Assembly (NCBI RefSeq): GCF_014842915.1
Contig: NZ_JACYXI010000003.1
Location: 124,001-188,000 of the forward strand
Length of the DNA stretch: 64,000 nucleotides
Direction of reading: 5' to 3'
DNA from: Roseibium litorale
GTDB lineage: Bacteria; Pseudomonadota; Alphaproteobacteria; Rhizobiales; Stappiaceae
The translations under genes and the position numbers were made by a program. Of this stretch, positions 5,572 through 64,000 are shown in pieces. Below the pieces are notes generated by a model. The model was given only the letters and a program-made list of their open reading frames with translations, was not told where the DNA came from and did no database searches. Position 1 is the first letter of the stretch. Every line of letters starts with the position of its first letter.

Positions 5572-6399
5572 ATGGACCGCTCCCGCCGTTCCGAGGGACA
5601 TGCTTACCGCGCAGGCAGCTTTCAGCGTCTGTCGCGGGAGCTCGCCTGCGAAACGGCGGTGGCCATCAGCTACAACGGCAGTGCTCATGCCGTTCTCATG
5701 GCGACCCCGTCAGATCTTGAGGATCTGGCGCTGGGTTTCACGCTCAGCGAGGGGATTGCGCGCAAGGACCAGATCGAGCGGATCGAGGTGGTGGAGACCC
5801 CCCTTGGTGCCGATGTTCAGGTCTGGCTTACGGACGAAGCCGCGGATACCCTGGCCAAGCGCCGCAGGGCCATGGCCGGACCCGTGGGATGCGGCATGTG
5901 CGGGCTTGAAAGCATTGAAGCGGCCATGCGCCATGTACCGGAAGTTTTCAGCACCATAAGGCTTCAACCGGCTCAGATCATCGAGGCGGTTGCGCGGATG
6001 GAGCGGGGGCAGGAGCTGAACCGCCTGACCCGCGCTGTTCATGCTGCAGGCTTTTATGACCCAGTGACCTGCACGGTCACTGTGCGCGAGGATGCCGGGC
6101 GGCACAACGCCATGGACAAGCTGATCGGAGCGAGAGCCCGGACCATGGACGGCGTTCCGGCACAGATCTTTGCAGGCGGGGCGGTTGTGATGAGCAGCCG
6201 GCTTTCGATTGAGCTGGTTCAGAAGGCAGCTGTGGCCGGGTGCGGAATTCTGATTGCCGTCTCGGCGCCAACGAGCCTTGCGGTCTCGACCGCGGAGAAT
6301 GCGGGCATGACCCTTGTGGCGCTCGCCCGCGGCAGTGATTTTGATATCTATACCCGGCCAGACCGGATCATTGATGGAGTTATGCCTGATGTCGCCTGA
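5572..6399 (+). CDS. fdhD: FdhD/FdsC sulfurtransferase and cofactor chaperone for formate dehydrogenase
   Basis: 275 residues. FdhD proteins transfer sulfur from a cysteine desulfurase to the Mo-bisMGD cofactor and deliver it to the alpha subunit; the fds-linked form is also called FdsC. The reactive CxxC is Cys107-Gly-Met-Cys110 in VGCGMCGLES. The C-terminal part has the family blocks HNAMDKLIGA and SSRLSIELVQKAAVAGCGIL. The ATG lies one base after the fdsA stop; a longer in-frame start inside fdsA would add 29 residues with no family similarity. Its end overlaps fdsD by 11 bases. Confidence 0.95.
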   Translation: MDRSRRSEGHAYRAGSFQRLSRELACETAVAISYNGSAHAVLMATPSDLEDLALGFTLSEGIARKDQIERIEVVETPLGADVQVWLTDEAADTLAKRRRAMAGPVGCGMCGLESIEAAMRHVPEVFSTIRLQPAQIIEAVARMERGQELNRLTRAVHAAGFYDPVTCTVTVREDAGRHNAMDKLIGARARTMDGVPAQIFAGGAVVMSSRLSIELVQKAAVAGCGILIAVSAPTSLAVSTAENAGMTLVALARGSDFDIYTRPDRIIDGVMPDVA

Positions 6400-6616
6400 T
6401 AAATTGGCCCGAATGGCCAATCAGATCGCCACGTTTTTCAAGAGTCGTCCGCATCAGGAAGGGGTTGATGGTGTAGCAGGTCATCTCAACGATTTTTGGG
6501 AACCAAGAATGCGCGCGCAGCTGTTTGAGCTGTTGAAGACAAACCCGGACATGTTCGATCCCCTGGTGCAGGAAGCAGCCAGCAAGGTGCGTCCGGTGGA
6601 GGCCAAGGCAAGTTAA
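6389..6616 (+). CDS. fdsD: Formate dehydrogenase delta subunit
   Basis: 75 residues, helical and soluble; matches the small FdsD family by position and by MANQIATFF, FWEPRMRAQL and a C-terminal region with FDPLVQEA. FdsD is the small accessory or structural subunit of fdsGBACD-type dehydrogenases. ATG 6389 is inside the end of fdhD, implying coupled translation. Its TAA stop (6614-6616) shares two bases with the stop of the convergent rbsR, so no terminator fits between the two operons. Confidence 0.9.
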   Translation: MSPDKLARMANQIATFFKSRPHQEGVDGVAGHLNDFWEPRMRAQLFELLKTNPDMFDPLVQEAASKVRPVEAKAS

Positions 6617-7608
6617 ACGGCAGCCGCTTCCGGCACAGGTGCTGACGTCTCACGGATGACCAGGTCACCGGCGATGGCCTCATCGCCGGTATCCGTTTGA
6701 GCGCTATCGAAAATGCGCTGAACAGCAGAACTCGCGAGTGCCTCAAACGGCTGGCGGATTGTGGTCAGGCGCGGGACGACGAGCGAGGCGAGCGTGATGT
6801 CGTCGAAGCCTGTTACGGTCAGTTCGCCTGGGATGTCGATTTTCAAATCCCGGGCGCTACGCAGCACGCCGATGGCAAGCTGATCGCTTGCCGCCGCAAT
6901 CGCGGTCGGCCTGTCTGGCTCAGACAGGATCTGGTGGCCAATTTCCTCGCCTGAATCATAATCGAAGTGCCCTTCGTGAAGGGTGAGTTCGATCGGGTCT
7001 TCGGGCGTGTTTAAGGCCTCGATGCGCGAGACGAAGCCGCTTTTGCGCTGCTGGGCCACATCCATGGACATAGGGCCAGCAATATAGGCGATCTTCCTGT
7101 GCCCGAGCGCATGAAGATGGTCGGCGATCTGGCGGGACCCGTTGAAATGGTCGGTCGCTACCAATGCGTAATCGCCATAGCGCCGGTCGAGAGACACGAT
7201 CGGAAGATCGACTGCCCGTCTCACCTGGCTGCCATGGGTGGCAACGACGATGATGCCGCGCACGGCCCGGTCACAGAGGGCCGAGATCTGGACAGCTTCC
7301 GCTTCCGGGTCGTCGTGGGAATTCGACAGCATCACGGAATGGCCGCGCTTGGCCGCTTCCATCTCGATGCTCTTGGCGAGCTGGGCGAAAAACGGATTGG
7401 TGATGTCCGGGATCACGAGCCCGAGCACGTCGATCTTGTTGGTGCGCAGCGCACGGGCGGTCAGGTTGGGCGAATAGTCCAGATCCGCCATGGCCTTGAG
7501 CACCCGCTCGCGCAGGGGCTGCTTGACCGTGTCGTTCTTGGCAAGCACGCGGGAAACTGTGCCGACGGATACTCCGGCTTTCCGGGCGACGTCCTTGATC
7601 GTCGGCAT
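6613..7608 (-). CDS. rbsR: LacI-family regulator of the ribose operon
   Basis: 331 residues. The N-terminal helix-turn-helix reads TIKDVARKAGVSVGTVSRVL, followed by the hinge helix (NLTARALRTN) and a periplasmic-binding-protein-like sugar domain with the core GLVIPDITNPFFAQL and GFDDITLASL. It is the last gene of the rbs operon, 66 bases after rbsK, so the repressor would be made with the genes it controls. Ribose as effector is inferred from the operon. ATG 7608 is the natural start because the HTH begins at residue 3. Confidence 0.92.
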   Translation of the reverse strand: MPTIKDVARKAGVSVGTVSRVLAKNDTVKQPLRERVLKAMADLDYSPNLTARALRTNKIDVLGLVIPDITNPFFAQLAKSIEMEAAKRGHSVMLSNSHDDPEAEAVQISALCDRAVRGIIVVATHGSQVRRAVDLPIVSLDRRYGDYALVATDHFNGSRQIADHLHALGHRKIAYIAGPMSMDVAQQRKSGFVSRIEALNTPEDPIELTLHEGHFDYDSGEEIGHQILSEPDRPTAIAAASDQLAIGVLRSARDLKIDIPGELTVTGFDDITLASLVVPRLTTIRQPFEALASSAVQRIFDSAQTDTGDEAIAGDLVIRETSAPVPEAAAV

Positions 7609-7674: not shown

Positions 7675-8601
7675 CTATCCTGCCGTCGAAGACAGAAATG
7701 ACAAGACTTCCTCGCGGGTGGGCAGAGAAGATGACGCGCCTTTGCGTGTTGTTGCGATGGCTGCTGCATGCATGGCGAAGCGGATGGCCGCTTCGAAGCC
7801 TTCGCCTTCCGCAAGCCGGGTGGCCAGCGCACCGTTGAAGCAGTCGCCAGCGGCAACCGTATCAATAGCTTTCACTTTCGGGGCAGGCAGTGCGCCCGTC
7901 TCAGCTTCAAAGGCCCAGGCCGCTCCCATGCCGCCCATGGTGATGATCGCGCCCTTCAAGCCTTGAGCCTTGAGCGCGCGCGCTGCGTCCTGCGCTTCGT
8001 CCAGGGTTTGGGGCGTTTCGCCGAGGATGGCGCCTGCTTCTTCCGCATTGGGGGTCATGATGTCGAAACAGGTAAACGTCTCAGGCCCCCAAGCCGGTAC
8101 CGCCGCGGGAGCCGGATCCATGATCACAAGAACGCCTGCCTTGCGCGCGATGCGGGCAGCTTCAAGGGAGGTTTCCAGCGAGATCTCGTTCTGGAGCAGC
8201 AGGACGCTGCTTTTCTCGATCTGTGCGGCATTTTCCCGGATGGTCTCAACAGACAGGCAAGCATTGGCGCCGCCTGCCAGACGGATGATATTGCTTCCGT
8301 CTGGAACCACATCGATGAAGGCCATGCCGGTCGAGACGTTTTCAAACTCCGCCAGCTGGGTTTTCACGCCCTTGGCTTCCAGCTGCTGGCGCACGTCCGC
8401 ACCGAAACTGTCCTTACCGGTCGCGCCCAGCATGGTCACGTCGGCTCCCAGAAGGGCGGCGGCTGCTGCCTGGTTCGCACCCTTGCCGCCGAGCGAGTTG
8501 GAGGTCTCGCGCACGGCGATGGTCTCGCCCACTTTCGGCCAGCGGTCGAGGTAGTTGAGCAGATCCAGATTGATGCTGCCGGCAACGGTAACGGGTTTCA
8601 A
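7675..8601 (-). CDS. rbsK: Ribokinase (PfkB family)
   Basis: About 308 residues; phosphorylates ribose to ribose 5-phosphate. PfkB signature 1 is the SLGGKGANQAAAAALLGADV segment, and signature 2 is KVKAIDTVAAGDCFNGALA, where the Asp of AAGD is the expected catalytic base. The start is TTG 8601, overlapping the rbsD stop as TTGA with GCGGGG about 8 bases upstream. A GTG at 8616 is in frame but has no Shine-Dalgarno. It sits between rbsD and rbsR in a minus-strand operon. Confidence 0.93.
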   Translation of the reverse strand: MKPVTVAGSINLDLLNYLDRWPKVGETIAVRETSNSLGGKGANQAAAAALLGADVTMLGATGKDSFGADVRQQLEAKGVKTQLAEFENVSTGMAFIDVVPDGSNIIRLAGGANACLSVETIRENAAQIEKSSVLLLQNEISLETSLEAARIARKAGVLVIMDPAPAAVPAWGPETFTCFDIMTPNAEEAGAILGETPQTLDEAQDAARALKAQGLKGAIITMGGMGAAWAFEAETGALPAPKVKAIDTVAAGDCFNGALATRLAEGEGFEAAIRFAMHAAAIATTRKGASSSLPTREEVLSFLSSTAG

Positions 8602-9008
8602 AACGCAACCCCGCACACAAGGATGATATTGGCGTAGGGCGTGATTTCACCGGTCCGGATCACGGCCAGAGCCGACTGGCTGCGGGCTTTGAAATCCGCA
8701 TGAGACAAGGTTGAGGTGGCGACCTGCTTGCCGGTCGCCGAAGCCCAGCTGCCGGCCTCTGCCTTCATCATCGACGCGACCTCCGTGGAAGCCTCGTTAG
8801 CCCAGACAGCGCCTTCGATCACCAGTTCGGTTCTGAGGGCAGCGAGAACGTCCTGCAAGCTGGGCAGACCGGAAGTGATCGCAAGATCGATCACTTCCAC
8901 GCCGCGCGGCATGGGCAGTCCGGCATCGGCCACGACGATCTCGTCCAGATGACCGGCGCGGGCAACGAGGGAACTCAGGTGGCGGTTCAAAAGAGCTGTG
9001 CGTTTCAT
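8598..9008 (-). CDS. rbsD: D-ribose pyranase
   Basis: 136 residues, the usual length. RbsD interconverts the pyranose and furanose forms of ribose so that ribokinase receives its substrate. Conserved RbsD blocks: LLNRHLSSLVARAGHLDEIVVADAG near the N-terminus (the catalytic His20 equivalent is in this block), PRGVEVIDLAI, and the C-terminal ALAVIRTGEITPYANIIL with the Tyr of PYAN. The start ATG overlaps the rbsC stop by 4 bases. Confidence 0.95.
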   Translation of the reverse strand: MKRTALLNRHLSSLVARAGHLDEIVVADAGLPMPRGVEVIDLAITSGLPSLQDVLAALRTELVIEGAVWANEASTEVASMMKAEAGSWASATGKQVATSTLSHADFKARSQSALAVIRTGEITPYANIILVCGVAF

Positions 9009-10003
9009 TTTCTGGCGAACCTTGCGCGGTAATAGTCCAGTATCACGGCGACAATGATAACCACACCGGTGATCATCTGGCGCATAAAGTCACTCAATCC
9101 ATACAGAATGAGACCGTTCGCGAGAACCCCGATGATGATTGCCCCGAGCAGGGTGCCGATCACGGAGCCACGGCCACCGCTCAGGCTTGTGCCGCCTATG
9201 ATGACAGCCGCGATGGCGTTGAGTTCGAAGCCTATGCCCGCAATCGGGCTGGAGATGTTAAGGCGGGCCATATAGACGACCGCCGCGACGCCTGCCGTCA
9301 GGCCGCAGATGGTGAAGGCGGCGACCTTGTACCAGAACACGGGATGGCCCGCGAGACGCACCGCTTCCTCATTGTTGCCGATGCCGTAAAGCAGCCGTCC
9401 GAAGACAGTGAAGTTCAGGATGAACCAGGCAATCAGCACGAACAGCAGAGCCACCAGAAATACCACCGGCACGCCATAAATCATCGCCGAGCCGAATTCC
9501 TCAAAGGCGAAGGGGAAGGAGTAGATGGTTTGTGCACCCGAAATCTGAAGGGCGCCGCCTCTGGCGATGTTCAGCATGCCAAGGGTGATGATGAAAGAGG
9601 GCAGGGACCAGAAGGCACTGACAATGCCGTTGAAGAGCCCGCAGAGAACACCTGTCATGGTGGCTGCGAAGATCGCGAGCGCAATGGCCTCGGCATCTCC
9701 AAACCCAGGCATTGTGATCGCTTTGCCCGCGACAACGGCGGCAAAAGCCATGACAGAACCCACCGAGAGATCGATGCCGCCGATCAGGATGACGAAGGTC
9801 ATGCCAACCGCCAGAACGAGGTTGATCGTGATCTGGGTCAGGATGTTTGTGATGTTGTTGGCGGTCAGAAAATGCTCGGTGGTAACCGAGAAGAAGATGA
9901 TCAGCGCTAGCAGTGCCAGGCCAATGCCCGCGTTTTGCATCACAGCCTGCAAGGAGATCCCGTTTCGTGCGGACCCCGTGTTCTTCATGGTGTCGGTCAT
10001 CAT
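9005..10003 (-). CDS. rbsC: Ribose ABC transporter permease
   Basis: 332 residues with about ten hydrophobic helices, the BPD_transp_2 architecture. The AraH/RbsC signature segment GGIDLSVGSVMAFAAV is seen near residue 75, and the EAA-like loop GGTSLSGGRGSVIGTLLGA near the C-terminus. It forms the inner-membrane channel for RbsA and RbsB. Only 2 bases separate it from rbsA, and it overlaps rbsD. Confidence 0.94.
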   Translation of the reverse strand: MMTDTMKNTGSARNGISLQAVMQNAGIGLALLALIIFFSVTTEHFLTANNITNILTQITINLVLAVGMTFVILIGGIDLSVGSVMAFAAVVAGKAITMPGFGDAEAIALAIFAATMTGVLCGLFNGIVSAFWSLPSFIITLGMLNIARGGALQISGAQTIYSFPFAFEEFGSAMIYGVPVVFLVALLFVLIAWFILNFTVFGRLLYGIGNNEEAVRLAGHPVFWYKVAAFTICGLTAGVAAVVYMARLNISSPIAGIGFELNAIAAVIIGGTSLSGGRGSVIGTLLGAIIIGVLANGLILYGLSDFMRQMITGVVIIVAVILDYYRARFARK

Positions 10004-10005
10004 CG

Positions 10006-11574
10006 TTACTGTTCTCCGGCCGTTTGGTTTTGCCCGTAGGCCAGTTTCAGGATGTTTTCTTCAGAGAAGTCCGGGCGGGAGATTTCGCCCTGGACTTCGT
10101 GTTCGGCCAGCACAAGAATCCGGTCGGCCAGGGTCATCAGTTCCGGCATTTCGGAAGAGACCACCAGCAGAGCCACACCTTCCCGCGCCAGCGCCTTGAG
10201 AATGGCGTAGATCTCGGCTTTCGCGCCGACGTCCACGCCCCGGGTCGGCTCGTCCAGCAGCAGCACCTTCGGGTTCCGGGCCAGCCATTTGGCCAGAACC
10301 ACTTTCTGCTGATTGCCGCCCGAGAGACTGGAGACCGCGTCCGCCAGACGTCCGTATTTCAGCTTGAGGCGCTTGCCGCCAGTCCGTGCCAGCTCGCGTT
10401 CGGCGGCAAAGTTCAGGATCCCGGAGCGGGAGACAGCCTTCATGCTGGCAAGTGAGGCATTGGCCGCAATCGGCATGTCCAGGATCAGGCCTTCGTCCTT
10501 CCGGTCTTCGGTCACAAAGCCGATGCCGGAGGCAATTGCATCGCGGGGACCGGAAAAAGTTACGGCCTGACCATCGCGCAGAAGAGTGCCGGAGCGGGGC
10601 GGATCGATCCCGAAGACGGCCCGCAGCAGTTCGGTGCGGCCTGCGCCAACAAGACCGGCAATGCCGACGATCTCACCGTAGCGCAGGTCAAGGGAGACGC
10701 CCTTGTCTTTCGGGTTCTGCCGGGTCTGGAGATTGTCGAGAGACAGAGCGATTGCGCCTGGCTGCGGGCGCTCCTCATTCGCGGAGTCATCACTGCCAAG
10801 ATCCCGCCCGACCATCCATTGGACGATGCCTCCCGGCGAGGTCTCGCTTATGTTCTCGGTCACGATGCTCTGACCGTTGCGGAACACGGTCACCCGGTCG
10901 CAGATGGCGAAGACCTCGTCCAGGTGATGGGACACAAAGACAACCGTCACGCCGCGGTCCTTGATGGAGGCGACGATCTCGAACAGGCGGCGGGTTTCGC
11001 GCTCGGTCAAGGTTGCGGTCGGCTCGTCCAGGATCAGAATACGGCTGTCGGATTGCAGGGCACGGGCGATTTCGACCAGCTGCCTATGTGCAATGCCGAG
11101 AGAGTTGACCGGCGCACGGACATCCACGTCCGTCAAGCCGATGGCGTCCAGCGCTTTGCGCGCACGCTCATTCATCTCCTTGCGGTCGAGCAGGCCGAAA
11201 CGGGTCTTCGGCATTTTCTCGATGGAGATATTCTCGGCAATGCTGAGGTGGTCGAGGAGATTGAATTCCTGGTGCACCACCTGAACGCCGGAAGCCTTGG
11301 CGTCGTGTGGGGAGGACGGGTGGTAAGCCTCGCCATCCAGATGAATGGTTCCAGCGTCATAAGGGAACACGCCGGATAGAATCTTGATCAGGGTCGACTT
11401 GCCAGCGCCGTTTTCGCCGACCAGCGCATGGACTTCCCCCTGCCTGAGGGAAAAGCTGACGCCATCAAGGGCTTTTACTCCGCCAAAGTGCTTCTTCACA
11501 CCTTCAGCCTGGAGAAATGCCTGGTCCGGGAGAGCAGCCTTCAAGGGCGCTGCCGGGAGCGGGGAAGAGGTCAT
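10006..11574 (-). CDS. rbsA: Ribose ABC transporter ATPase (two tandem ATP-binding domains)
   Basis: 522 residues with two nucleotide-binding domains, as in RbsA/MglA/AraG. Domain 1 has Walker A GENGAGKST and Walker B LILDEPTATLT. Domain 2 has the family-typical degenerate Walker A (GLVGAGRTELL) with signature SGGNQQKV and LLLDEPTRGVDVG. The start ATG 11574 is preceded by GGAGG 5 bases upstream. It follows rbsB after a 77-base gap holding a GC-rich stem-loop. Confidence 0.95.
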   Translation of the reverse strand: MTSSPLPAAPLKAALPDQAFLQAEGVKKHFGGVKALDGVSFSLRQGEVHALVGENGAGKSTLIKILSGVFPYDAGTIHLDGEAYHPSSPHDAKASGVQVVHQEFNLLDHLSIAENISIEKMPKTRFGLLDRKEMNERARKALDAIGLTDVDVRAPVNSLGIAHRQLVEIARALQSDSRILILDEPTATLTERETRRLFEIVASIKDRGVTVVFVSHHLDEVFAICDRVTVFRNGQSIVTENISETSPGGIVQWMVGRDLGSDDSANEERPQPGAIALSLDNLQTRQNPKDKGVSLDLRYGEIVGIAGLVGAGRTELLRAVFGIDPPRSGTLLRDGQAVTFSGPRDAIASGIGFVTEDRKDEGLILDMPIAANASLASMKAVSRSGILNFAAERELARTGGKRLKLKYGRLADAVSSLSGGNQQKVVLAKWLARNPKVLLLDEPTRGVDVGAKAEIYAILKALAREGVALLVVSSEMPELMTLADRILVLAEHEVQGEISRPDFSEENILKLAYGQNQTAGEQ

Positions 11575-11611
11575 CGGGCCTCCGGAAGAATGGTGCAGCT
11601 TAAAATCAACC

Positions 11612-11635
11612 CCCGCCCCGGCGGACCGGGACGGG
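11612..11635 (-). terminator. Stem-loop between rbsB and rbsA (processing or attenuation hairpin)
   Basis: Ten-base arms at 11612-11621 and 11626-11635 pair with one G-U wobble in the minus-strand transcript around a 4-base loop. Only a weak T-rich stretch follows. Such hairpins after binding-protein genes usually stabilise the upstream message or partly attenuate the downstream genes; a full stop here would cut off rbsACDK, so partial action is inferred. Confidence 0.55.
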
Positions 11636-11651
11636 AGCTGGGAGGATAGGG

Positions 11652-12572
11652 TCAGTCAGCGGTGACCAGCTCGATCGGGGTCTTGACCCAGCCTTCGAGC
11701 GGTTTTCCGCCTGCAACGACGCTCAGAGCCATGTCGATGGCGTTGGCTGCCATGTCCGTGCCGAACTGGTCGACGGTTGCCAGCATGCGGCCATCCTTGA
11801 TCATCGGTTCAACGGCCGGGATGTTGTCGAAGCCGACAACCTGAATGTCCTTGCGGCCTGCGCTTTCAAGCGCCTTGACCACGCCGATGGCCATGGAGTC
11901 ATTGGCAGCCATGACGCCCTGAATGTCCGGGTGTGCGGTCAGCATGGTGGAGAAGACCGAGTTGGCTTCTTCCGTTTCCCAGTGAGCGGTACGGCTGTCG
12001 AGCAGGTTCAGCTTGTACTCGGCAACGGAGTCTTCAAAGCCGAGACGGCGCTGGGTCGCGTTGTCCGCCCCTGGGTTCCCCTCAATGATGACGACTTTGG
12101 CGCCTTCGCCAAGTTTTTTGGCCAGTGCGTCACCTGCCAGCTTAGCGCCGCCCCGGTTGTCCGGGCCGACGAACGCCAGTTCCACGCCCTGCTGCTTCTT
12201 GGCATCCTCATCAAGTGCCACGTCGAAGTTGACGACGACGATGCCGGCTTCCATAGCTTTTTTCAGCGGACGGACCATTGCGCGGGAATCTGCCGGTGCA
12301 ACGACGATGGCATCAACACCCTGGGTGATGAAGTTTTCGACCGCGTTGATCTGGGATTCGAAATCGGTCTCGTTCTGCATGCCGACAGCAACGAGTTCAT
12401 AGTCGCCGCGCTTCTGCTGATGGGCTTCCGCGCCCTTCATCATGTTCTGGAAGAACTCGTTGGCGAGGGACTTCATGATGAGGCCGACGACAGGCTTGTC
12501 AGCAGCGTTGGCGGTACCAGCAAGCAATATGAGGCTGGTCGCTGCGGCGGCAGCGAGCTTGGAAAATTTCAT
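11652..12572 (-). CDS. rbsB: Ribose-binding periplasmic protein
   Basis: 306 residues. A signal peptide is clear: MKFSK, a hydrophobic stretch with SLILLAG, then cleavage near TANA-AD. The mature protein is a type I sugar-binding protein (Peripla_BP_4): VGLIMKSLANEFFQNM, NPGADNATQRRLG and AANDSMAIGVVKALESAG match RbsB. ATG 12572 is chosen because GGGAGGAA sits 5 bases upstream and it starts exactly at the signal peptide; a longer frame to 12647 has no support. First gene of the rbs operon. Confidence 0.95.
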   Translation of the reverse strand: MKFSKLAAAAATSLILLAGTANAADKPVVGLIMKSLANEFFQNMMKGAEAHQQKRGDYELVAVGMQNETDFESQINAVENFITQGVDAIVVAPADSRAMVRPLKKAMEAGIVVVNFDVALDEDAKKQQGVELAFVGPDNRGGAKLAGDALAKKLGEGAKVVIIEGNPGADNATQRRLGFEDSVAEYKLNLLDSRTAHWETEEANSVFSTMLTAHPDIQGVMAANDSMAIGVVKALESAGRKDIQVVGFDNIPAVEPMIKDGRMLATVDQFGTDMAANAIDMALSVVAGGKPLEGWVKTPIELVTAD

Positions 12573-12886
12573 TGTATTCCTCCCAAAATATGCCGCTTCT
12601 CTGCGTGACAGATCAGTGCCCCGGAGCGGCTGCAATATTGAAATCACGGCTTGGGCAGGCTGGTCAATATGAAACGATACAAAAATTTGTATCGTTTCAT
12701 TTTTTGAGCAAAACCAGCAACTTGAGCGATAGTCTGTGCCGAAGCGTGATGTGGATTAGTGGCCGGGAGGACCGGATAGCTTTGCAGAACAGACCAACTG
12801 AAATAATTTAGAATGCTGAAAATATTGAGACTTTCCAGTATGGATCTCTGCCCGACGGCCCATTAAATTTTAGGGGATGTTGCCTC
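12573..12886 (-). promoter_or_regulatory. 314-base gap between rbsB and cutC, rbs promoter region
   Basis: No gene is seen. It must hold the rbs promoter. On the minus strand TTGACC (12667-12662) could be a -35 box; no convincing -10 is visible. The large palindrome at 12669-12700 lies immediately upstream of that box. The part nearest cutC is AT-rich and shows no hairpin with a T-run, so where the cutC operon terminates is unclear. Confidence 0.5.
12669..12700. promoter_or_regulatory. Candidate RbsR operator, 32-base palindrome
   Basis: Perfect 15-base arms (starting ATGAAACGATACAAA) flank a central AA. Each arm contains a 12-base LacI-type box, TGAAACGATACA and its inverse TGTATCGTTTCA, with a central CG. 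The two CG centres are 18 bases apart. It lies 97-128 bases upstream of rbsB. Binding by RbsR is inferred from family and position. Confidence 0.7.
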
Positions 12887-13642
12887 TCAGGGTTGTCTTC
12901 CTGCAAGCAGGGCCTTCAGCTGGCGCACAACACCGGCATCGGTTTGTTTGGGACAACCGGACAGGAAACCGAGGTCGAGCAGCCGCTGATGAGTGACCGT
13001 TTGAACGGTGGAACAGGACGCGTGAATTTCCTTGATGGCAAGGGTGGGAGTGAACCGGGCGGCATTGCCGGGATTGATGCCGCTGCCGGGCATGATGGAG
13101 ATCCTGTCGCCAGCGCGCTCGGCAAGGGCGGCGAGCTGATCCAATCCGGCTTCTGCGGTGGGCGCTCCACCTGAGGTCAGGATGCGGGAGAAGCCCAGGT
13201 CGATGGCGGCCTCCAGTGCTTCGGTGAGGTCCGGGGCAAGATCGAAGGCACGGTGGAGTGTCACGTCCAGTGTGTCGGCATGTTTGATCAGATCGGAGAG
13301 AGTTTTGGTGTCGAGGCGGCCGTCCTCGGTACTGACACCGATGACAACCCCCGGCAGGCCGCAGTCCGCGGCCGCCTCAATGTCGCGCTTGATGATGCCG
13401 ATTTCCGCTTGTGAATACTGGAAGCCGCCTTGGCGCGGGCGGATCAGAGGATAGATGGGGATGCCCGCACTTGCCGCCTGGCGCATGAAGCCAGGGGAAG
13501 GCGTCAGTCCACCGGTGGACAGGGCCGAACAGAGTTCGATCCGGTCGGCCCCGCCCTCGACGGCGGCCAGAAGGCCGTCCATCGTATCAACGCAGACTTC
13601 GAGCAGAACGCTGTCCGGGGTGGTGTGCGCAGAAGTGGTCAT
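12887..13642 (-). CDS. cutC: CutC family protein
   Basis: 251 residues, a TIM-barrel family first named for copper homeostasis in E. coli, though a direct copper role is disputed. Family blocks visible: LEVCVDTMDGLLAAVEGGADRIELCSAL, GGLTPSPGFM, PIYPLIRPRQGGFQYS, and the C-terminal MPGSGINPGNAARF and EIHASCS (each split over the usual barrel strands). ATG 13642 starts the conserved part; a 32-residue upstream extension has no family similarity. Last gene of a minus-strand operon of amino-sugar and peptide genes, 28 bases after the MFS gene, which argues for a metabolic rather than a copper role here. Confidence 0.88.
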   Translation of the reverse strand: MTTSAHTTPDSVLLEVCVDTMDGLLAAVEGGADRIELCSALSTGGLTPSPGFMRQAASAGIPIYPLIRPRQGGFQYSQAEIGIIKRDIEAAADCGLPGVVIGVSTEDGRLDTKTLSDLIKHADTLDVTLHRAFDLAPDLTEALEAAIDLGFSRILTSGGAPTAEAGLDQLAALAERAGDRISIMPGSGINPGNAARFTPTLAIKEIHASCSTVQTVTHQRLLDLGFLSGCPKQTDAGVVRQLKALLAGRQP

Positions 13643-13670
13643 GGGGCGGGTCTCCGGATGGTGTGCAAAG

Positions 13671-14879
13671 TCAGTTTGTGGCCGCCGGCTTGCGGCCATC
13701 AAGTCCATAGACGAGGGCGACGCCGAGCAGCCCTGCAAGACCGCCGATCATGGAGGTTCCGGCATAGCCGGACACATAGGTGCCGAAGCCGAAGAGCACC
13801 GAGCTGAGACCAGCGCTGATGAAGAGATTGACCGAAATCAGCGAGCTGCCAAGCCCCGCAAGATCCGGGATGAGTTCCTGCAGATAGGTGATCGGCAGGC
13901 TGATGATTGCCGCGGCACCCAATCCGCTGATCAGGCACAGCGCATAGACGTGCAAGGGGGAAGATGACAGGCCAAGCAGCACGAGATAGGCCGCATAGAG
14001 TGCGGCGCCCGTGCAGATGGAGAGAACCGGGCCGAGTTTTGGCTCCATCCGGCCCCAGAACATGATGAAGACGATCTCCAGCATGGCAACGACCCCGATG
14101 ACTATGCCGACATCGGTCAGGGTTCCGCCTGCGGTTTCCGTGGTGATCAGCGGCAGGACGGCCGCATTCACATGCAGCATGGACGTGATGAGCGAGATGG
14201 CGAGAAGCCGCACGAGTACACCCGGCCTTGCGACACGGCGGAGGGAGGCGAGGAATTGAATGTTCGTCTTCAATCCGCCGTCGGATGGCAGCTTGCGCGG
14301 CAAGGCGAACTGGAAGAGGCCGAAACAGACAAGACAGGCACTCATGGAGATCAGATAGGCAGGCAACATGCTGCCTGCGTTGGCGAGAACCATGCCCACA
14401 AGACCCGGCACCAGCACCCAGGACAGGGAAATCATCGCGCGGACAGCGGCATTGATACCTGCCAGCTCATTGCCCGGCAGCGTTACCGAATATGCCCGCA
14501 CATTGGCAAAGATCAGGGAGTTCAGGGCGCCGAAGATCGGCAACAGGGCGAGAAGCCCGATCAGGAAGCTGACCGTATTCGCTCCGAAATAGATGATGCC
14601 CGAGCCGGCAATGCCGAAGCAGCTGACGACGATCAAGGCGCGCCGGTAGTCGCCGAGCCGGTCCGAGAAGATGCCGATCACCACGCTCGCGATCACGTTG
14701 ATGATCGCAGCGAAAAGGATCACGGCGGAATAGGCCGCGTCGCTCAGGCCAAATTCCTGAATAGCGATGACGGACTGGAAGGGGCTGGTCGCAGCGCCTG
14801 CAAAGCCGAAGAAGAAGATGGCCATTGCGCTGACCCGGATCGGGGCATGGCGGAAGGCTGCCGCGTACATGGAGAACAT
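13671..14879 (-). CDS. MFS transporter, sugar-efflux (Set) type
   Basis: 402 residues, twelve predicted membrane helices in two sets of six with a central polar loop (about 195-215, PRKLPSDGG). The motif A loop after helix 2 reads GIFSDRLGDYRR. Overall spacing resembles SetA/SetB sugar-efflux transporters. It lies between the M81 peptidase and cutC genes in the same direction, so it may move a sugar or peptide product of this operon; direction and substrate are unknown. Confidence 0.75.
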   Translation of the reverse strand: MFSMYAAAFRHAPIRVSAMAIFFFGFAGAATSPFQSVIAIQEFGLSDAAYSAVILFAAIINVIASVVIGIFSDRLGDYRRALIVVSCFGIAGSGIIYFGANTVSFLIGLLALLPIFGALNSLIFANVRAYSVTLPGNELAGINAAVRAMISLSWVLVPGLVGMVLANAGSMLPAYLISMSACLVCFGLFQFALPRKLPSDGGLKTNIQFLASLRRVARPGVLVRLLAISLITSMLHVNAAVLPLITTETAGGTLTDVGIVIGVVAMLEIVFIMFWGRMEPKLGPVLSICTGAALYAAYLVLLGLSSSPLHVYALCLISGLGAAAIISLPITYLQELIPDLAGLGSSLISVNLFISAGLSSVLFGFGTYVSGYAGTSMIGGLAGLLGVALVYGLDGRKPAATN

Positions 14880-14927
14880 TTGGGAAAACCGGAAAGGGGC
14901 TGCCGGACGATCCGGCAGCCGGGAAAG

Positions 14928-16370
14928 TTAGGCCTGCCAGCGGGCGGAAAGGCGGGCGGCAGGCGTATAGTTGAAAGTCCTGTCAAACGGGAAGGCAGGA
15001 GCGGAACGGCGGGCGTTTGTCAGCCGTTCGATGTCCTGATTGACCACCCCGTCCGTCAGGGCCATGAGGTTGGGGGCCGCGATCGGCGCCAGTTCCGGCG
15101 ACAGATATCCGGATTTGACCACGACCATCCGGGCCGCTTTAGGATCAAGCCCGAGACGGGTGAAGTCCGGGATGTTGTGATAAGGCCTCCGTCTTGCGGC
15201 CAGAACCACTGTGTTCCCGGCGATCTCCACCACGGCCTGTCGCTCATCCCGCGTGCCGCCTGGGGTGTCGTCCAGTTTCAGCACCTTGGCTGTGACTCCA
15301 ACTTTCTGGCTGGAGGGATCCAGCGAGCCGCCGATCGTGAGCTGAACCATGTTGCCTTCTCCGGCAGCGATGCAGGCTTCAACCGCAGGCTTGTCGGTGA
15401 TGCCGGCCACGACGGCTCCGGTGAAGCCGCGGCGGAGCAGTTCGGCCAGAACATCGGCCCGGTCGCCAACGCCGCCCCCGGTCGGGTTGTCGCCGGAATC
15501 TGCCAGAATGACAGGTCTTGTTGTTGCCTGTTCCGCCAGATCCATCATTTCTGACAGGGGCCCGGTGACCGGTCCGAACTGAAAGCCGTTACGCGCATCC
15601 CAGTAGGACTGAGCGATGGTCTCAGCGGTTGTTATCGCCGCCTGCCGGTCTGTGCCTGTAACGACGGCACAGGCCGTTGCCCGCGGCTCGTCTGCCCAGA
15701 CATAGCCAACCATCAGATTGGCATCGAGCACGCCGGGGGTCTGGTCATGACCGGGTAGAGCGGCATAGAGACCTGCTGCCGGATGATCTTCGGTCGAGGT
15801 GCGCTCACCCGGCAGCAAGACAGGAACCGGTGCCCAGGCAATGCCGGGGCGGGTGCCGGTCTTCAGGCAGTCCACCAGCATCGTATAGGCGCGGATCATG
15901 GTTTCACGCACATCAATATGGGGCGCTGTGCGGTAACCAGCGAAGATGTCGAGCTGGTCGATGATCTTCTGGCTGACATTGCCATGAAGGTCATAGCTGG
16001 CGGCAATCGGGATGTCCGGTCCGGCCAGTTCCCGGACAGCGGAGATCCAGTCACCTTCCGCATCATCCATGCCGTCGACATTCATTGCACCATGCATGGC
16101 GAGATAAATGCCGTCGGCGGGCAGCGCCGCTTTCAGAAGGTCCAGAAACTCTGCCTTGAACGCTTCATAGGTTGCCCGGGCTACTGGCCCGCCGGGAACC
16201 GCGCGGGCATGGAGAAGCGGGGCGATCTCGACATCCGGCTGAGGCAGGAAGGAGAAATACTCCGACTTCGGCAGAGCGTCCTCGCGCATGACGAAGAAGT
16301 CTTCCAGCTGCATCAGCACCGGCGAGTATGTGCTGCATTCCGTATGAATGCCGCCAACTGCAATACGCAT
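14928..16370 (-). CDS. M81 family metallopeptidase (MlrC/microcystinase C type), copy 1
   Basis: 480 residues. M81 proteins combine an N-terminal zinc-peptidase domain (DUF1485) with a C-terminal MlrC domain; the founding member hydrolyses linearised microcystin. Seen here: MRIAVGGIHTECSTYSP at the N-terminus (His and Glu typical of the metal site), YLAMHGAM, AASYDLHGNVS, and the C-terminal block DSGDNPTGGGVGDRADVL. The start is ATG 16370, at the conserved N-terminus. Substrate here is unknown; a second copy is encoded at 21068-22537. Confidence 0.88.
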   Translation of the reverse strand: MRIAVGGIHTECSTYSPVLMQLEDFFVMREDALPKSEYFSFLPQPDVEIAPLLHARAVPGGPVARATYEAFKAEFLDLLKAALPADGIYLAMHGAMNVDGMDDAEGDWISAVRELAGPDIPIAASYDLHGNVSQKIIDQLDIFAGYRTAPHIDVRETMIRAYTMLVDCLKTGTRPGIAWAPVPVLLPGERTSTEDHPAAGLYAALPGHDQTPGVLDANLMVGYVWADEPRATACAVVTGTDRQAAITTAETIAQSYWDARNGFQFGPVTGPLSEMMDLAEQATTRPVILADSGDNPTGGGVGDRADVLAELLRRGFTGAVVAGITDKPAVEACIAAGEGNMVQLTIGGSLDPSSQKVGVTAKVLKLDDTPGGTRDERQAVVEIAGNTVVLAARRRPYHNIPDFTRLGLDPKAARMVVVKSGYLSPELAPIAAPNLMALTDGVVNQDIERLTNARRSAPAFPFDRTFNYTPAARLSARWQA

Positions 16371-61226: not shown

Positions 61227-61619
61227 ATGTCTGTTGCTGATGCAAAACGATTTGCTGACGAAATTGCAAAGGATCCGGAACTGAGAGATGCTGTTAAGGG
61301 AGTGGCGACCGGGCTCGCGTCTGTCGTGGAATTTGCAAAGTCGAGAGGCTATGATTTCTCGATTGATGAGGCGAAAGAATATATTCTGTCCCGGTCTCCC
61401 CAGGATCTCACCGACGAACAGCTCGACGCCATTGCCGGCGGCAAGCATCACCACAGCTCTGTTGCTACTTCGAGCACTGTTGCTCAGACCACAGCAGTCG
61501 CCAGTTCCGCCGTGGAGGCGGCAGAAGTGGCGACCAGCGCGGTGCAGGTGGCTGAAGCGGCTGCTGACGTGGCTGCCGCTGTCGAAGTCGTGGCCGTGGC
61601 TGCTGCCGTCCTGACCTGA
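61227..61619 (+). CDS. RiPP precursor peptide with Nif11/NHLP-like leader
   Basis: 130 residues, with AGGAGG 5 bases before the ATG (a near-perfect ribosome site). Residues 1-72 form an amphipathic leader, RFADEIAKDPELRDAV then SRSPQDLTDEQLDAIAGG, whose LTDEQLDAIAGG end is the standard double-glycine cleavage site of Nif11- and nitrile-hydratase-like leaders. The predicted core, residues 73-130, begins KHHHSS and holds 20 Ala and 13 Val among 58 residues, plus Ser, Thr and five acidic residues, but no Cys, Gly, Pro or aromatics. That rules out lanthionine or sactionine chemistry and fits an epimerase substrate. The radical SAM gene begins 69 bases downstream. Confidence 0.88.
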   Translation: MSVADAKRFADEIAKDPELRDAVKGVATGLASVVEFAKSRGYDFSIDEAKEYILSRSPQDLTDEQLDAIAGGKHHHSSVATSSTVAQTTAVASSAVEAAEVATSAVQVAEAAADVAAAVEVVAVAAAVLT

Positions 61620-61650
61620 TCCAGCCGGCATTGAGCTGGCACGGTTCGGT

Positions 61651-61682
61651 CCGCCCCTTGCCGTCTCCGGCATCGGGGGCGG
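61651..61682 (+). other. Stem-loop between precursor and maturase genes
   Basis: CCGCCCC (61651-61657) pairs with GGGGCGG (61676-61682), and inside it TGCCG pairs with CGGCA around a TCTC loop. No T-run follows. It abuts the ribosome-binding region of the ATG at 61689. Likely lowers expression of the maturase relative to the precursor, by processing, pausing or occluding translation. Confidence 0.6.
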
Positions 61683-61688
61683 GCGGAA

Positions 61689-63227
61689 ATGCCTTTTGGG
61701 GACCGGTTGAAAGGGGCGTTTTGCTCGATGAAAATCACCAAGGCCACACGACATTACCGCGGCATATTTGAAACCCGGAGCGCGGAGCAGATCCGCGAGC
61801 TGGCCCATACCAAGCGGTTCATGGAACGACTGGCGACCGACCCGGCTTTCCGGCAGGCTCTCGGTGAGAACCTGGACTGTCCCTCAAAGGCATCCGAGGC
61901 CTTCGGTCTGGAGCTGGACCCGGCAGAAGTCCCGACCCTTTGGCGTGTGGACCACCGCAAGTGGCGCCATTCCGAAGAGCGTCACCGGTGGCCCATGGCT
62001 GCGGCCTGGGATGACTATATCAAGGATATGCTCACCCACCGCGACATGATCCGCGATGAGGGCGCAACAGAGCATATTCATCCGAAGTTTGACCGCTGGC
62101 GGCAAAGGCAGATCCGCCGGTCCTACAGCGAACTCGGCGCTTCCGCCCATGCTGTGGTTCACCCCATCGTCGCCTTTGAGCTGAGCGAGGGCTGCACTGT
62201 CGGCTGCTGGTTCTGCGGCCTGTCGGCGGACAAGTTCCGCGGCCATGTTTCTTATGAAGAGAAAGGCGAGCTGTGGAAGGGTGTGGTCAAGGCGATGAAC
62301 GACCGCTTCGACACAGCTGTTCAGACCGGTTTCTGCTACTGGGCAACGGACCCCTGCGACAACCCGGACTATGACCGGTTCATCGAGGACTATTACCACA
62401 TCACCGGCGCGCTTCCGCAAACGACGACGGCGGCGCCGCTGAAGGACGAGGCGCTGACCCGCCGCGTTCTGGCGCTCTTCGACAAGTTCAAGACCGTCAC
62501 CAACCGCTTCTCTGTCCTGAGCGTCCGGCACCTGGACAAGATCCATGCGGCTTTCACACCGGAAGAACTCATGGGTGTGGAACTGGTCCTGCAGAGCAAG
62601 CATTCGCTTTCGGCCAAGGCGCATGCGGGCCGGGCGCGGGAGCGGGTTCAGAAGTTGAGGGAGGCCGGCAAGTCCGAGAAGATTTCTGAGCTGGAAATCG
62701 ATCACACGACCATTGCCTGTGTTTCCGGCTTCCTGGTTTCGATGGTCCGCCAGACCGTGCAGCTCGTTGTTCCGGTGCCGGGCAGCGATAAATATCCGCT
62801 TGGCTATCGTGTGTTCGGCGAGCGCCACTTCGAGGATGCTGCGTCGTTCGGGGCCGCTATCGATGACCTGATTGACACGCACATGATGACAGACATGCCT
62901 GCCAGCTGGCCGGCACGGTTCCGTGCCGATCTCGCTTACGAGCCGGCAAAATATGGCTTCAGGCTTATATCCAGATGCCAGGAGCACACGATCGAGAACC
63001 CCGCTTGCGGCCGGCTAGCAGGAGAGCTCATTGCCGCCGGTAACCTGACCATGGGCGAGGTTGTGTCTGTGCTGTTGGAGGCGGGAACGGGTCTCATGGT
63101 TGCAGCCGAATTCATGGACACGGTCTTCAGCGCCGGTGTGCTTGAGGAATACAGCTCTCAGGCAGAAGCCGACGCGCTACGTGGCGAGCTTCTGGAGGCC
63201 AATCTGGCGGCCATTCCGGCTGAGTGA
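61689..63227 (+). CDS. Radical SAM RiPP maturase, PoyD-type peptide epimerase candidate
   Basis: 512 residues from ATG 61689; ATG 61728 (residue 14) is also possible and starts at MKITKATRHY. The radical SAM cluster motif is Cys169-x3-Cys173-x2-Cys176 in SEGCTVGCWFCGLSADKF, matching the family annotated as RiPP amino-acid epimerases (PoyD, OspD). These abstract an alpha-hydrogen and return one on the opposite face, giving D-residues. No SPASM domain with a Cys-rich tail is obvious; later Cys residues (FCYWATDPCDNP) could donate the hydrogen or bind metal. Residues 43-60 resemble the leader of the precursor. Epimerisation is inferred from family and precursor. Confidence 0.85.
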   Translation: MPFGDRLKGAFCSMKITKATRHYRGIFETRSAEQIRELAHTKRFMERLATDPAFRQALGENLDCPSKASEAFGLELDPAEVPTLWRVDHRKWRHSEERHRWPMAAAWDDYIKDMLTHRDMIRDEGATEHIHPKFDRWRQRQIRRSYSELGASAHAVVHPIVAFELSEGCTVGCWFCGLSADKFRGHVSYEEKGELWKGVVKAMNDRFDTAVQTGFCYWATDPCDNPDYDRFIEDYYHITGALPQTTTAAPLKDEALTRRVLALFDKFKTVTNRFSVLSVRHLDKIHAAFTPEELMGVELVLQSKHSLSAKAHAGRARERVQKLREAGKSEKISELEIDHTTIACVSGFLVSMVRQTVQLVVPVPGSDKYPLGYRVFGERHFEDAASFGAAIDDLIDTHMMTDMPASWPARFRADLAYEPAKYGFRLISRCQEHTIENPACGRLAGELIAAGNLTMGEVVSVLLEAGTGLMVAAEFMDTVFSAGVLEEYSSQAEADALRGELLEANLAAIPAE

Positions 63228-63250
63228 ACATCAGACAGGGCGGTGTCAGC

Positions 63251-64000
63251 ATGATGCCGTCCTGGTCTCATCAGTCCTTGGCAATGGCGGAGAAAAAACG
63301 GGACACGGGGGAGAACGTGACATTCCTTTCGCAGATCCCAGAGGTGGCGGCGGCTCATGCAGGCGTGGATGTTACTGTGACATCTTTGGCTGGCTTCGAA
63401 CCCGTTGCGCATCTCACCTTTCCGGTTCTACGGGAAAAACTCCGCGGAAAAGCGGGGGTTAAGCTGGCCATCGCTCAGGACGGCGGATTTCCCTGTGGCT
63501 TGGCCGTTGGTGTCCCTGGTCCCAATGCGGACTTCGAGCTTGCCTCGCTCTATGTCCTGCCGCTTTACCGCCGCCAAGGCCTCGGGACCCGCTTGCTAAG
63601 GGAGATGGAGCAGGCCTTTGTGGCGGAAGGCTGCCGCACGGGCGCAAGTTACGTCACGGTGAAACCGGAGGATCAGAGCCCTCTGCATTTCCTGCGGTCT
63701 GCCGGTTGGCCGAACCTTCGCGTAACCGGGCTGAACTGCCGGACAACGATTGAAAAGGCGTTCGAGACCTCCTGGCTGGTCAAGGCGCGGTTGCCGGATC
63801 CTTTTGAAGTCATCGCCTGGCAGGAGGTTGACGAGGCGGCGCGGGCGAGGATCTCGGCGGCAATTGGCGGCCTGTCGCCACCGGATCTGAGTCCCTTTGT
63901 GTTCGAAGGGGATGCGCATCTGCCAACCAGCGTAGCCCTGCGGGATAAACGGGACGGCAGGGTCCGGGGCTGGATCATCACTCATCAGATCGGTGCAGAT
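63251..64000 (+). CDS. GNAT acetyltransferase, 3' end beyond the window
   Basis: An open frame of 250 codons runs from ATG 63251 to the last base with no stop. Residues about 93-120, ELASLYVLPLYRRQGLGTRL, are GNAT motif A with the acetyl-CoA loop R-R-x-G-x-G. A second GNAT-like region may begin near residue 190 (WQEVDEAARARIS), suggesting a tandem protein. GTG 63317 with GGGGGAGAAC directly upstream is an alternative start that would drop 22 residues. It follows the radical SAM gene by 23 bases, so it is probably part of the same RiPP operon, as tailoring enzyme or immunity protein. Confidence 0.8.
   Translation, partial: MMPSWSHQSLAMAEKKRDTGENVTFLSQIPEVAAAHAGVDVTVTSLAGFEPVAHLTFPVLREKLRGKAGVKLAIAQDGGFPCGLAVGVPGPNADFELASLYVLPLYRRQGLGTRLLREMEQAFVAEGCRTGASYVTVKPEDQSPLHFLRSAGWPNLRVTGLNCRTTIEKAFETSWLVKARLPDPFEVIAWQEVDEAARARISAAIGGLSPPDLSPFVFEGDAHLPTSVALRDKRDGRVRGWIITHQIGAD

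Follow-up and report, generated by a model that had tools for sequence, protein, structure and literature searches.

The 64,000-nucleotide stretch of Roseibium litorale DNA analyzed here (assembly GCF_014842915.1, contig NZ_JACYXI010000003.1, positions 124,001 to 188,000; hereinafter the window) carries, from position 61,227 to its end and for about 12 kb beyond it, a gene cluster of the kind that makes ribosomally synthesized and post-translationally modified peptides (RiPPs). We hold it very probable that this cluster specifies a pathway for an exported peptide with D-amino acids and C-methylations and, probably, an N-acyl group. Gene content, family matches, conservation and linkage are established; what we infer from them is each chemical step, which residues are modified, which acyl group is added and what the AprA-like, MetX-like and CAAX-type proteins do. 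Several observations argue for this reading: the precursor, the epimerase, the HlyD protein, the C39 peptidase ABC exporter and the C-methyltransferase all score above their curated cut-offs; the same set is present in Roseibium suaedae with nonsynonymous divergence (dN) well below synonymous divergence (dS); the genes stand together in two further genomes and partly in a third; Aminobacter and Mesorhizobium plasmids carry much of the set in a row on one strand, and all 44 plasmid records with a precursor also match the epimerase; a GNAT gene and a GGK(G)HH core start co-occur (9/9 loci versus 0/21 without the GNAT); and the C-methyltransferase homologues have the PoyC motif, while the epimerase has candidates for the strictly conserved cysteine that PoyD needs, as described below. 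The features are as follows (window position = L002 + 57000).

61227..61619, + strand: Nif11-leader RiPP precursor, ATG to stop, 130 amino acids (TIGR03798 and PF07862)
61620..61727, + strand: hairpin between precursor and epimerase, candidate read-through attenuator (-56.7 kcal/mol)
61728..63227, + strand: PoyD-family radical SAM peptide epimerase (TIGR04517); its open reading frame (ORF) opens at 61689
63317..64000, running on past the window for 237 bases (to L002:7237), + strand: tandem-GNAT-like acyltransferase (PF00583)
L002:7361-8131, + strand: CAAX/Rce1-type membrane protein (PF02517, 37.5 bits, cut-off 22.4)
L002:8180-9430, + strand: NHLM HlyD protein (TIGR03794, 250 bits, cut-off 156)
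L002:9427-11607, + strand: C39 peptidase ABC exporter (TIGR03796, 913 bits, cut-off 853)
L002:11604-14369, + strand: second ABC protein, ABC2 (TIGR03797, 675 bits, under the cut-off of 709)
L002:14366-15841, + strand: AprA-like methyltransferase, 491 amino acids (PF23525, 227 bits)
L002:15824-16984, - strand: MetX-like protein (NF001209, 368.6 bits, cut-off 331; TIGR01392, 337.6 bits, cut-off 500)
L002:16938-18947, - strand: PoyC-type radical SAM C-methyltransferase, 669 amino acids (TIGR03975, 667 bits, cut-off 282)

An earlier note on this DNA had proposed, for an alphaproteobacterium, a 130-residue precursor with a good ribosome site and a double-glycine leader end, and all of this holds, including the host: the gene extends from ATG 61227 to 61619 behind an AGGAGG located 5 bases 5′ of the ATG, and LTDEQLDAIAGG closes the leader (residues 1-72), the border reading AIAGG, then K. 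The core (residues 73-130, 58 in all) begins KHHHSSVATSS. The leader had been called Nif11/NHLP-like, of which the first half stands, with 45.6 bits against a cut-off of 32.3 for the Nif11-like leader model TIGR03798 and 46.7 against 23.8 for Pfam Nif11 (PF07862); the NHLP model TIGR03793 yields 17.4 bits, under its cut-off of 50.9. Nor is the precursor a proteusin, its leader being Nif11 and not nitrile-hydratase-like. It is the single TIGR03798 match in the R. litorale genome at E ≤ 0.001. The same cluster occurs in R. suaedae DSM 22153 as the sole locus in a scan of the genome contigs, with an epimerase 94% identical; every gene compared between the two species has dN well below dS, the least conserved being the GNAT and the CAAX-type protein at 80% identity each. 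Between them, 1 of 58 core residues (dN 0.008, dS 0.947) and 10 of 72 leader residues (dN 0.067, dS 0.814) have changed, giving dN/dS of about 0.008 for the core versus 0.08 for the leader. The core is thus the most constrained part compared, and this two-species contrast of dN and dS indicates that the precursor gene is more than a chance ORF.

The next ORF (61689-63227, 512 amino acids) contains CTVGCWFC, a CxxxCxxC motif, and its suspected place in the PoyD-type radical SAM family is borne out by the hidden Markov model TIGR04517 (rSAM_PoyD), which gives 500.5 bits against a cut-off of 325 and aligns its positions 1-446 with residues 38-486. The ORF is as first described, whereas the start, set 69 bases after the precursor, more likely lies at ATG 61728 (MKITK..., 499 amino acids, 108 bases after the precursor), because this ATG is common with R. 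suaedae and ATG 61689 falls inside the predicted hairpin. The R. suaedae equivalent of that hairpin folds at -53.2 kcal/mol with a different stem sequence (two sequences, no shuffle control), and a role as a read-through attenuator is possible. In the numbering of the 512-residue ORF, C169, C173 and C176 of the CxxxCxxC motif are invariant in 22 aligned epimerase rows, and C344 is kept in 21 of them, the exception being L032, a copy with a frame break. In PoyD, a single strictly conserved Cys372 is reported as the hydrogen donor, and the enzyme needs it (PMC8326336). C344 may be equated with it; however, C216 too is kept, in 22/22 rows, and so the alignment does not fix the donor cysteine. A sequence search of the PDB with the epimerase at E ≤ 1 returned no match. 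Residues 42-91 weakly match the leader-peptide domain model NF038399 (25.6 bits, cut-off 40).

As the window end cuts the cluster, the earlier impression of a simpler pathway with no methyltransferase was mistaken: both the PoyC-type and the AprA-like methyltransferases lie past it. The C39-peptidase ABC exporter and HlyD protein that the earlier note advised looking for beyond base 64000 are indeed there, accompanied by ABC2; against the NHLM exporter models, two of these three proteins exceed the cut-offs and ABC2 falls short. The AprA-like methyltransferase can be aligned to AprA MT1 (6b39, E 4.4e-33) as well as to two polyketide synthase (PKS)-related chains; its H417, H440 and Q445, which we take to be metal ligands, are kept in 4/4 aligned copies (the L021 copy not among them). 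The MetX-like protein has GGC at its nucleophile elbow, with Cys for Ser, in 5/5 cluster copies, while the C30 paralogue has Ser; it is perhaps a peptide O-acyltransferase or esterase. The PoyC-type enzyme falls in TIGR03975, and the Cx7Cx2C motif reported for PoyC (PMC11285071) is present in 15/15 of the C-methyltransferase homologues; a PDB sequence search with it at E ≤ 0.001 found no match. Across 20 kb, Rfam at gathering thresholds likewise gave no match. Some 10 kb beyond the cluster (in L003) are ORFs that, judged by eye, resemble type VI genes.

Accordingly arranged, the pathway would begin with ribosomal synthesis of the 130-residue precursor, whose Nif11-like leader would dock the enzymes. 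The PoyD-family enzyme would then convert several L-residues of the core to the D-form by abstracting the alpha hydrogen, with one returned by a protein cysteine (perhaps Cys344), and the PoyC-type enzyme would methylate unactivated carbons, most likely those of valines. The GNAT would acylate the start of the core, most likely at the Lys that follows the double glycine. Finally, the C39 peptidase of the ABC exporter would cleave after Gly-Gly, and the HlyD/ABC system would export the peptide. Plasmids of Rhizobium and Sinorhizobium retain a reduced version that lacks the GNAT and, mostly, the GG site.

The GNAT itself (Acetyltransf_1, PF00583, 43.1 bits for the ORF open at the window end) had been placed 23 bases after the epimerase; the gene is confirmed, while its start is likely GTG 63317 and not ATG 63251, since similarity to R. 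suaedae begins at the former and GGGGGAGAAC precedes it. Foldseek matched its model (pLDDT 65) best to the tandem GNAT 2wpw (E 2.2e-11, TM 0.50). In all nine GNAT-bearing loci (L002, L008, L021, L022, L029, L030, L032, L033 and L052), the leader/core border reads GG-K-(G)-HH; it does so in none of the 21 loci without a GNAT (L027, L028, L031, L034-L042 and L053-L061), of which three (L027, L038 and L061) retain GG at the border and L034 has GG one residue further on. These counts take a multi-precursor locus once, omit L020, L023, L051, L043 and L044, and include near-copies (L030/L033, L032/L052, L027/L061 and L037/L055), for which reason Fisher values computed from them cannot be taken as fair probabilities; L052-L061 were added as a check after the pattern had been seen, and 21 rows were scored by script, the rest by eye. 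For plasmid loci, absence of the GNAT means that the whole plasmid record was scanned at E ≤ 1e-5; 11 plasmid records matched it, five strongly, and all five strong ones carry the epimerase. Among the loci left out, the contig of L023 ends before the GNAT position, its two precursors beginning GGKGHH and GGKGDN; of the cyanobacterial L043 and L044, no precursor was found in the former, and the latter has two Nif11 ORFs of another type. A GNAT-like stretch on a Nostoc plasmid (L048, 6690-8801) proved to be part of a TIGR03032-annotated protein around which, over 8 kb, no RiPP gene is annotated, and this match was set aside. We regard the association of GNAT and core start as suggestive, not as proof.

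The GNAT raises the possibility of a selidamide-type lipopeptide, in which it would attach a fatty acid to the first core Lys and the lipid would be key to activity. The residues acylated by selidamide GNATs are (hydroxy)ornithine or lysine, and one such GNAT belongs to an NHLP cluster of an alphaproteobacterium (PMC9505594); moreover, a Lys directly follows GG in 9/9 of the GNAT loci. However, the GNAT model lies closest to tandem GNATs, several of which were solved with acetyl-CoA, the Lys often persists in GNAT-less loci, and the likeness consists in the GNAT fold and the Lys position, acyl specificity not being readable from the sequence. We consider a lipopeptide of this type possible but less likely than not.

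Polytheonamide offers another model: a pore former with alternating D- and L-residues and tert-leucines, folding into a membrane-spanning beta-helix under an N-terminal acyl cap. The joint presence of a PoyD-family epimerase and a PoyC-type C-methyltransferase speaks for it, as does a long core with small and branched residues, rich in Val, Ala, Thr and Ser. On the other side, the window's core contains no Asn and hence could not bear a side-chain N-methylation ladder as in polytheonamide, and its His-rich start and four Glu fit poorly. Hydrophobic-moment analysis of five cores at six angles found no significant periodicity, including at period 2, leaving a polytheonamide-like beta-helix unsupported. 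Furthermore, the AprA-like methyltransferase matched nothing in the PDB at E ≤ 1e-10 besides AprA MT1 and the PKS-related chains, and scanning the eight proteins downstream gave no LanM-like match (with respect to the two ABC proteins, within the up to 25 matches listed). A product of this kind is accordingly improbable.

Returning to the proposed D-amino-acid RiPP pathway, its relatives are rare in whole-genome samples. Epimerase matches were recovered in 3 of 101 relatives, 7 of 385 genomes of the class (three over the family cut-off), 2 of 397 of the order and 2 of 398 of the phylum, in overlapping samples that include the window's own genome and the broken G095. In genomes G454 and G306, the precursor and epimerase genes are accompanied by those for the GNAT, the C-methyltransferase and the MetX-like and AprA-like proteins; G473 has some of these genes next to the end of a contig. 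Among 72,556 plasmid records, 53 matched the epimerase (Rhizobium 24, Sinorhizobium 21, Mesorhizobium 5, and one each in Aminobacter, Kovacikia and Nostoc), and in 44 of these one place accounts for 80% or more of the query. The precursor was found in 44 records, all within these 53, with a few of the epimerase matches partial (lists compared by eye); the nine epimerase records with no precursor match include L036, where the precursor is present as an ORF, two cyanobacterial records and four with a fragment of 30% of the query. On Aminobacter pANY103c and Mesorhizobium MesoLjLa4, the precursor, epimerase, GNAT, C-methyltransferase, HlyD and two ABC proteins occur in order on one strand. Elsewhere the precursor and epimerase keep company with nitrogen-fixation genes: about 1.8 kb before nifH in Rhizobium sp. 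NXC14 and R. etli NXC12, and near nifS and nifHDK on pNGR234a. Four precursors, one of them truncated, are annotated on S. meliloti pHRB800, which also has the epimerase and C-methyltransferase. In S. meliloti RCAM1115 (L037, 5104-7948), four tandem precursors flank a partial epimerase match (6258-6632), suggesting duplication. M. huakuii 7653R has a second precursor-epimerase copy (L051, CP006583.2:398000-425000), which adjoins type VI secretion genes; its precursor protein is identical to that of L029, and a GNAT fragment is found next to a transposase gene of IS1634.

The reduced Rhizobium/Sinorhizobium loci show no NHLM-type exporter match within flanks of 6-15 kb, the one hit being a weak generic ABC match in L038. 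Two R. leguminosarum/sullae locus pairs show dN/dS of 0.13-0.19 for the core and 0.18-0.27 for the epimerase. The other pairs compared are less clear, with 0.18-0.41 for the core (one core pair having no synonymous change), up to 0.49 for the epimerase and two leader values, based on few changes, near or above 1. The simplest reading of these sequences is that an ancestral system with GNAT, GG cleavage and export was partly lost on Rhizobium and Sinorhizobium plasmids, with precursor and epimerase remaining under constraint.

Published tables show that homologous rhizobial plasmid genes are expressed in bacteroids. In M. huakuii 7653R nodules, 111 genes were lower with an abiEi mutant than with the wild type, nif genes among them, as well as two Nif11 precursors, an 'amino acid epimerase', an N-acetyltransferase and 'maturation protein 1' (PMC8436566); going by names and neighboring gene numbers, the last two would belong to the cluster. 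The plasmid is called pMHa there and pMHb in the record used here. A bacteroid proteome lists MCHK_12735 (12.54 kDa) at 0.50 in a hypE mutant (PMC10454058); this is the locus tag of the L029 precursor, whose computed mass is 12.54 kDa. In R. leguminosarum 3841 bacteroids, pRL100099, a 'Nif11 family protein' of 14.45 kDa, was reported (PMC7105596), and the L040 precursor on pRL10 computes to 14.45 kDa, the two being linked through mass and plasmid rather than through a locus tag. In the tables of these sources, precursors of this family stand under headings such as nitrogen fixation or amino-acid metabolism, and in the available portions of the papers we saw no treatment of the genes as a RiPP pathway beyond database names.

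These data bear on whether the rhizobial epimerised precursor might stay uncleaved in the bacteroid and act there without secretion. The loss of the GNAT and, mostly, of GG, the flanks with no NHLM-type exporter match and the reports of precursors in M. huakuii bacteroids and, identified by mass, in those of R. leguminosarum 3841 are consistent with this. However, the exporter scan was confined to the flanks; the window's cluster has both GG and an exporter, M. huakuii keeps GG and GNAT, and it is not apparent from the proteomes whether leader, core or both were detected. We consider such an intracellular role rather unlikely. An extended version, to which we also give little credence, is that a family of D-amino-acid, C-methylated Nif11 peptides was taken over by rhizobial symbiosis plasmids and that the part of it that lost cleavage, acylation and export acts in bacteroids as an intact epimerised protein. 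If true, it would amount to a class of symbiosis factor, encoded next to the nif genes, that has so far gone unrecognised. Whether a D-amino-acid peptide is active in nodules is a question testable in standard laboratory strains.

That the genes are decayed or non-functional is highly improbable and, for the window, we reject it: broken copies do exist elsewhere (L020, the L032 frame break and the insertion-sequence genes adjoining several plasmid copies), but every gene in the window's cluster keeps an open reading frame, with dN well below dS against R. suaedae. We accept L020 (G095:C1:7598000-7617000, at 8180-15121) as a decayed cluster, its epimerase being in pieces and its C-methyltransferase split by a stretch holding a 449-amino-acid ORF with no family assignment; its core start reads GGTFNSS with no Lys-His-His, and its 19 kb contain no GNAT match.

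Several points weigh against the proposal of an exported, epimerised and C-methylated peptide. The C-methyltransferase and MetX-like genes are on the strand opposite to the rest of the cluster, ABC2 falls below its NCBIfam cut-off, and the cores lack the periodicity noted above. The Pfam Radical_SAM score of the epimerase is 13.7, under the cut-off of 29.5, its AlphaFold model is poor (pLDDT 53.6) and that of the GNAT is middling (65.2). Of seven relatives' precursors, L030 and L021 pass TIGR03798, L027, L042 and L040 score under its cut-off, and for L028 and L035 a threshold of 0.01 gave no match. The earlier note had named close homologues of the enzyme with no GG-leader precursor nearby as a finding that would speak against it; this is partly what is seen, many close epimerase homologues adjoining precursors without GG, and 18 of the 21 GNAT-less plasmid loci having no GG at the leader/core border of the adjoining precursor. 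Lastly, the co-occurrence of GNAT and GGKHH may reflect shared ancestry, several rows being near-copies: on the tree of 22 epimerases, the GNAT pattern needs three changes, at least two of them forced by well-supported branches.

The cluster can be set against several known systems. As to the description 'undescribed' given to it before, we found no earlier account of the Roseibium cluster in what we saw of the open-licence papers searched, subscription papers on PoyD genome mining being outside that scope; however, the pairing of a Nif11 leader with a PoyD homologue was already known from the plp cluster of Pleurocapsa (spliceotides, PlpD), which has Nif11- or nitrile-hydratase-type leaders (PMC11002830). 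Unlike plp, with its PlpX splicease, the Roseibium cluster has a C-methyltransferase, a GNAT and AprA-like and MetX-like proteins. With the polytheonamide and aeronamide clusters (poy, aer), it shares the PoyD-family epimerase, a B12 radical SAM C-methyltransferase with Cx7Cx2C and a long core; it differs in its Nif11 leader, where theirs is nitrile-hydratase-like, in having a GNAT and an AprA-like methyltransferase, and in lacking core Asn and, within the downstream scope given above, a LanM-like match. The RiPP cluster of the selidamide phaeornamide, also alphaproteobacterial, likewise includes a GNAT and exports by a peptidase-ABC route, but has an NHLP-family precursor, an arginase, a hydroxylase and a LanM, with neither epimerase nor C-methyltransferase among its listed genes (PMC9505594). 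The HlyD, C39 ABC and second ABC proteins resemble the NHLM export system of Haft 2010 (TIGR03794/03796/03797; PMC2887384), from which the Roseibium set departs in its sub-cut-off TIGR03797 match. Judged by its predicted proteins, then, the Roseibium cluster is best read as a variant of known Nif11/PoyD-type pathways. It brings the epimerase and C-methyltransferase pair of hypermodified marine peptides together with a GNAT and with a methyltransferase of AprA type, the leader being of the Nif11 kind and the hosts alphaproteobacteria that can be cultivated.

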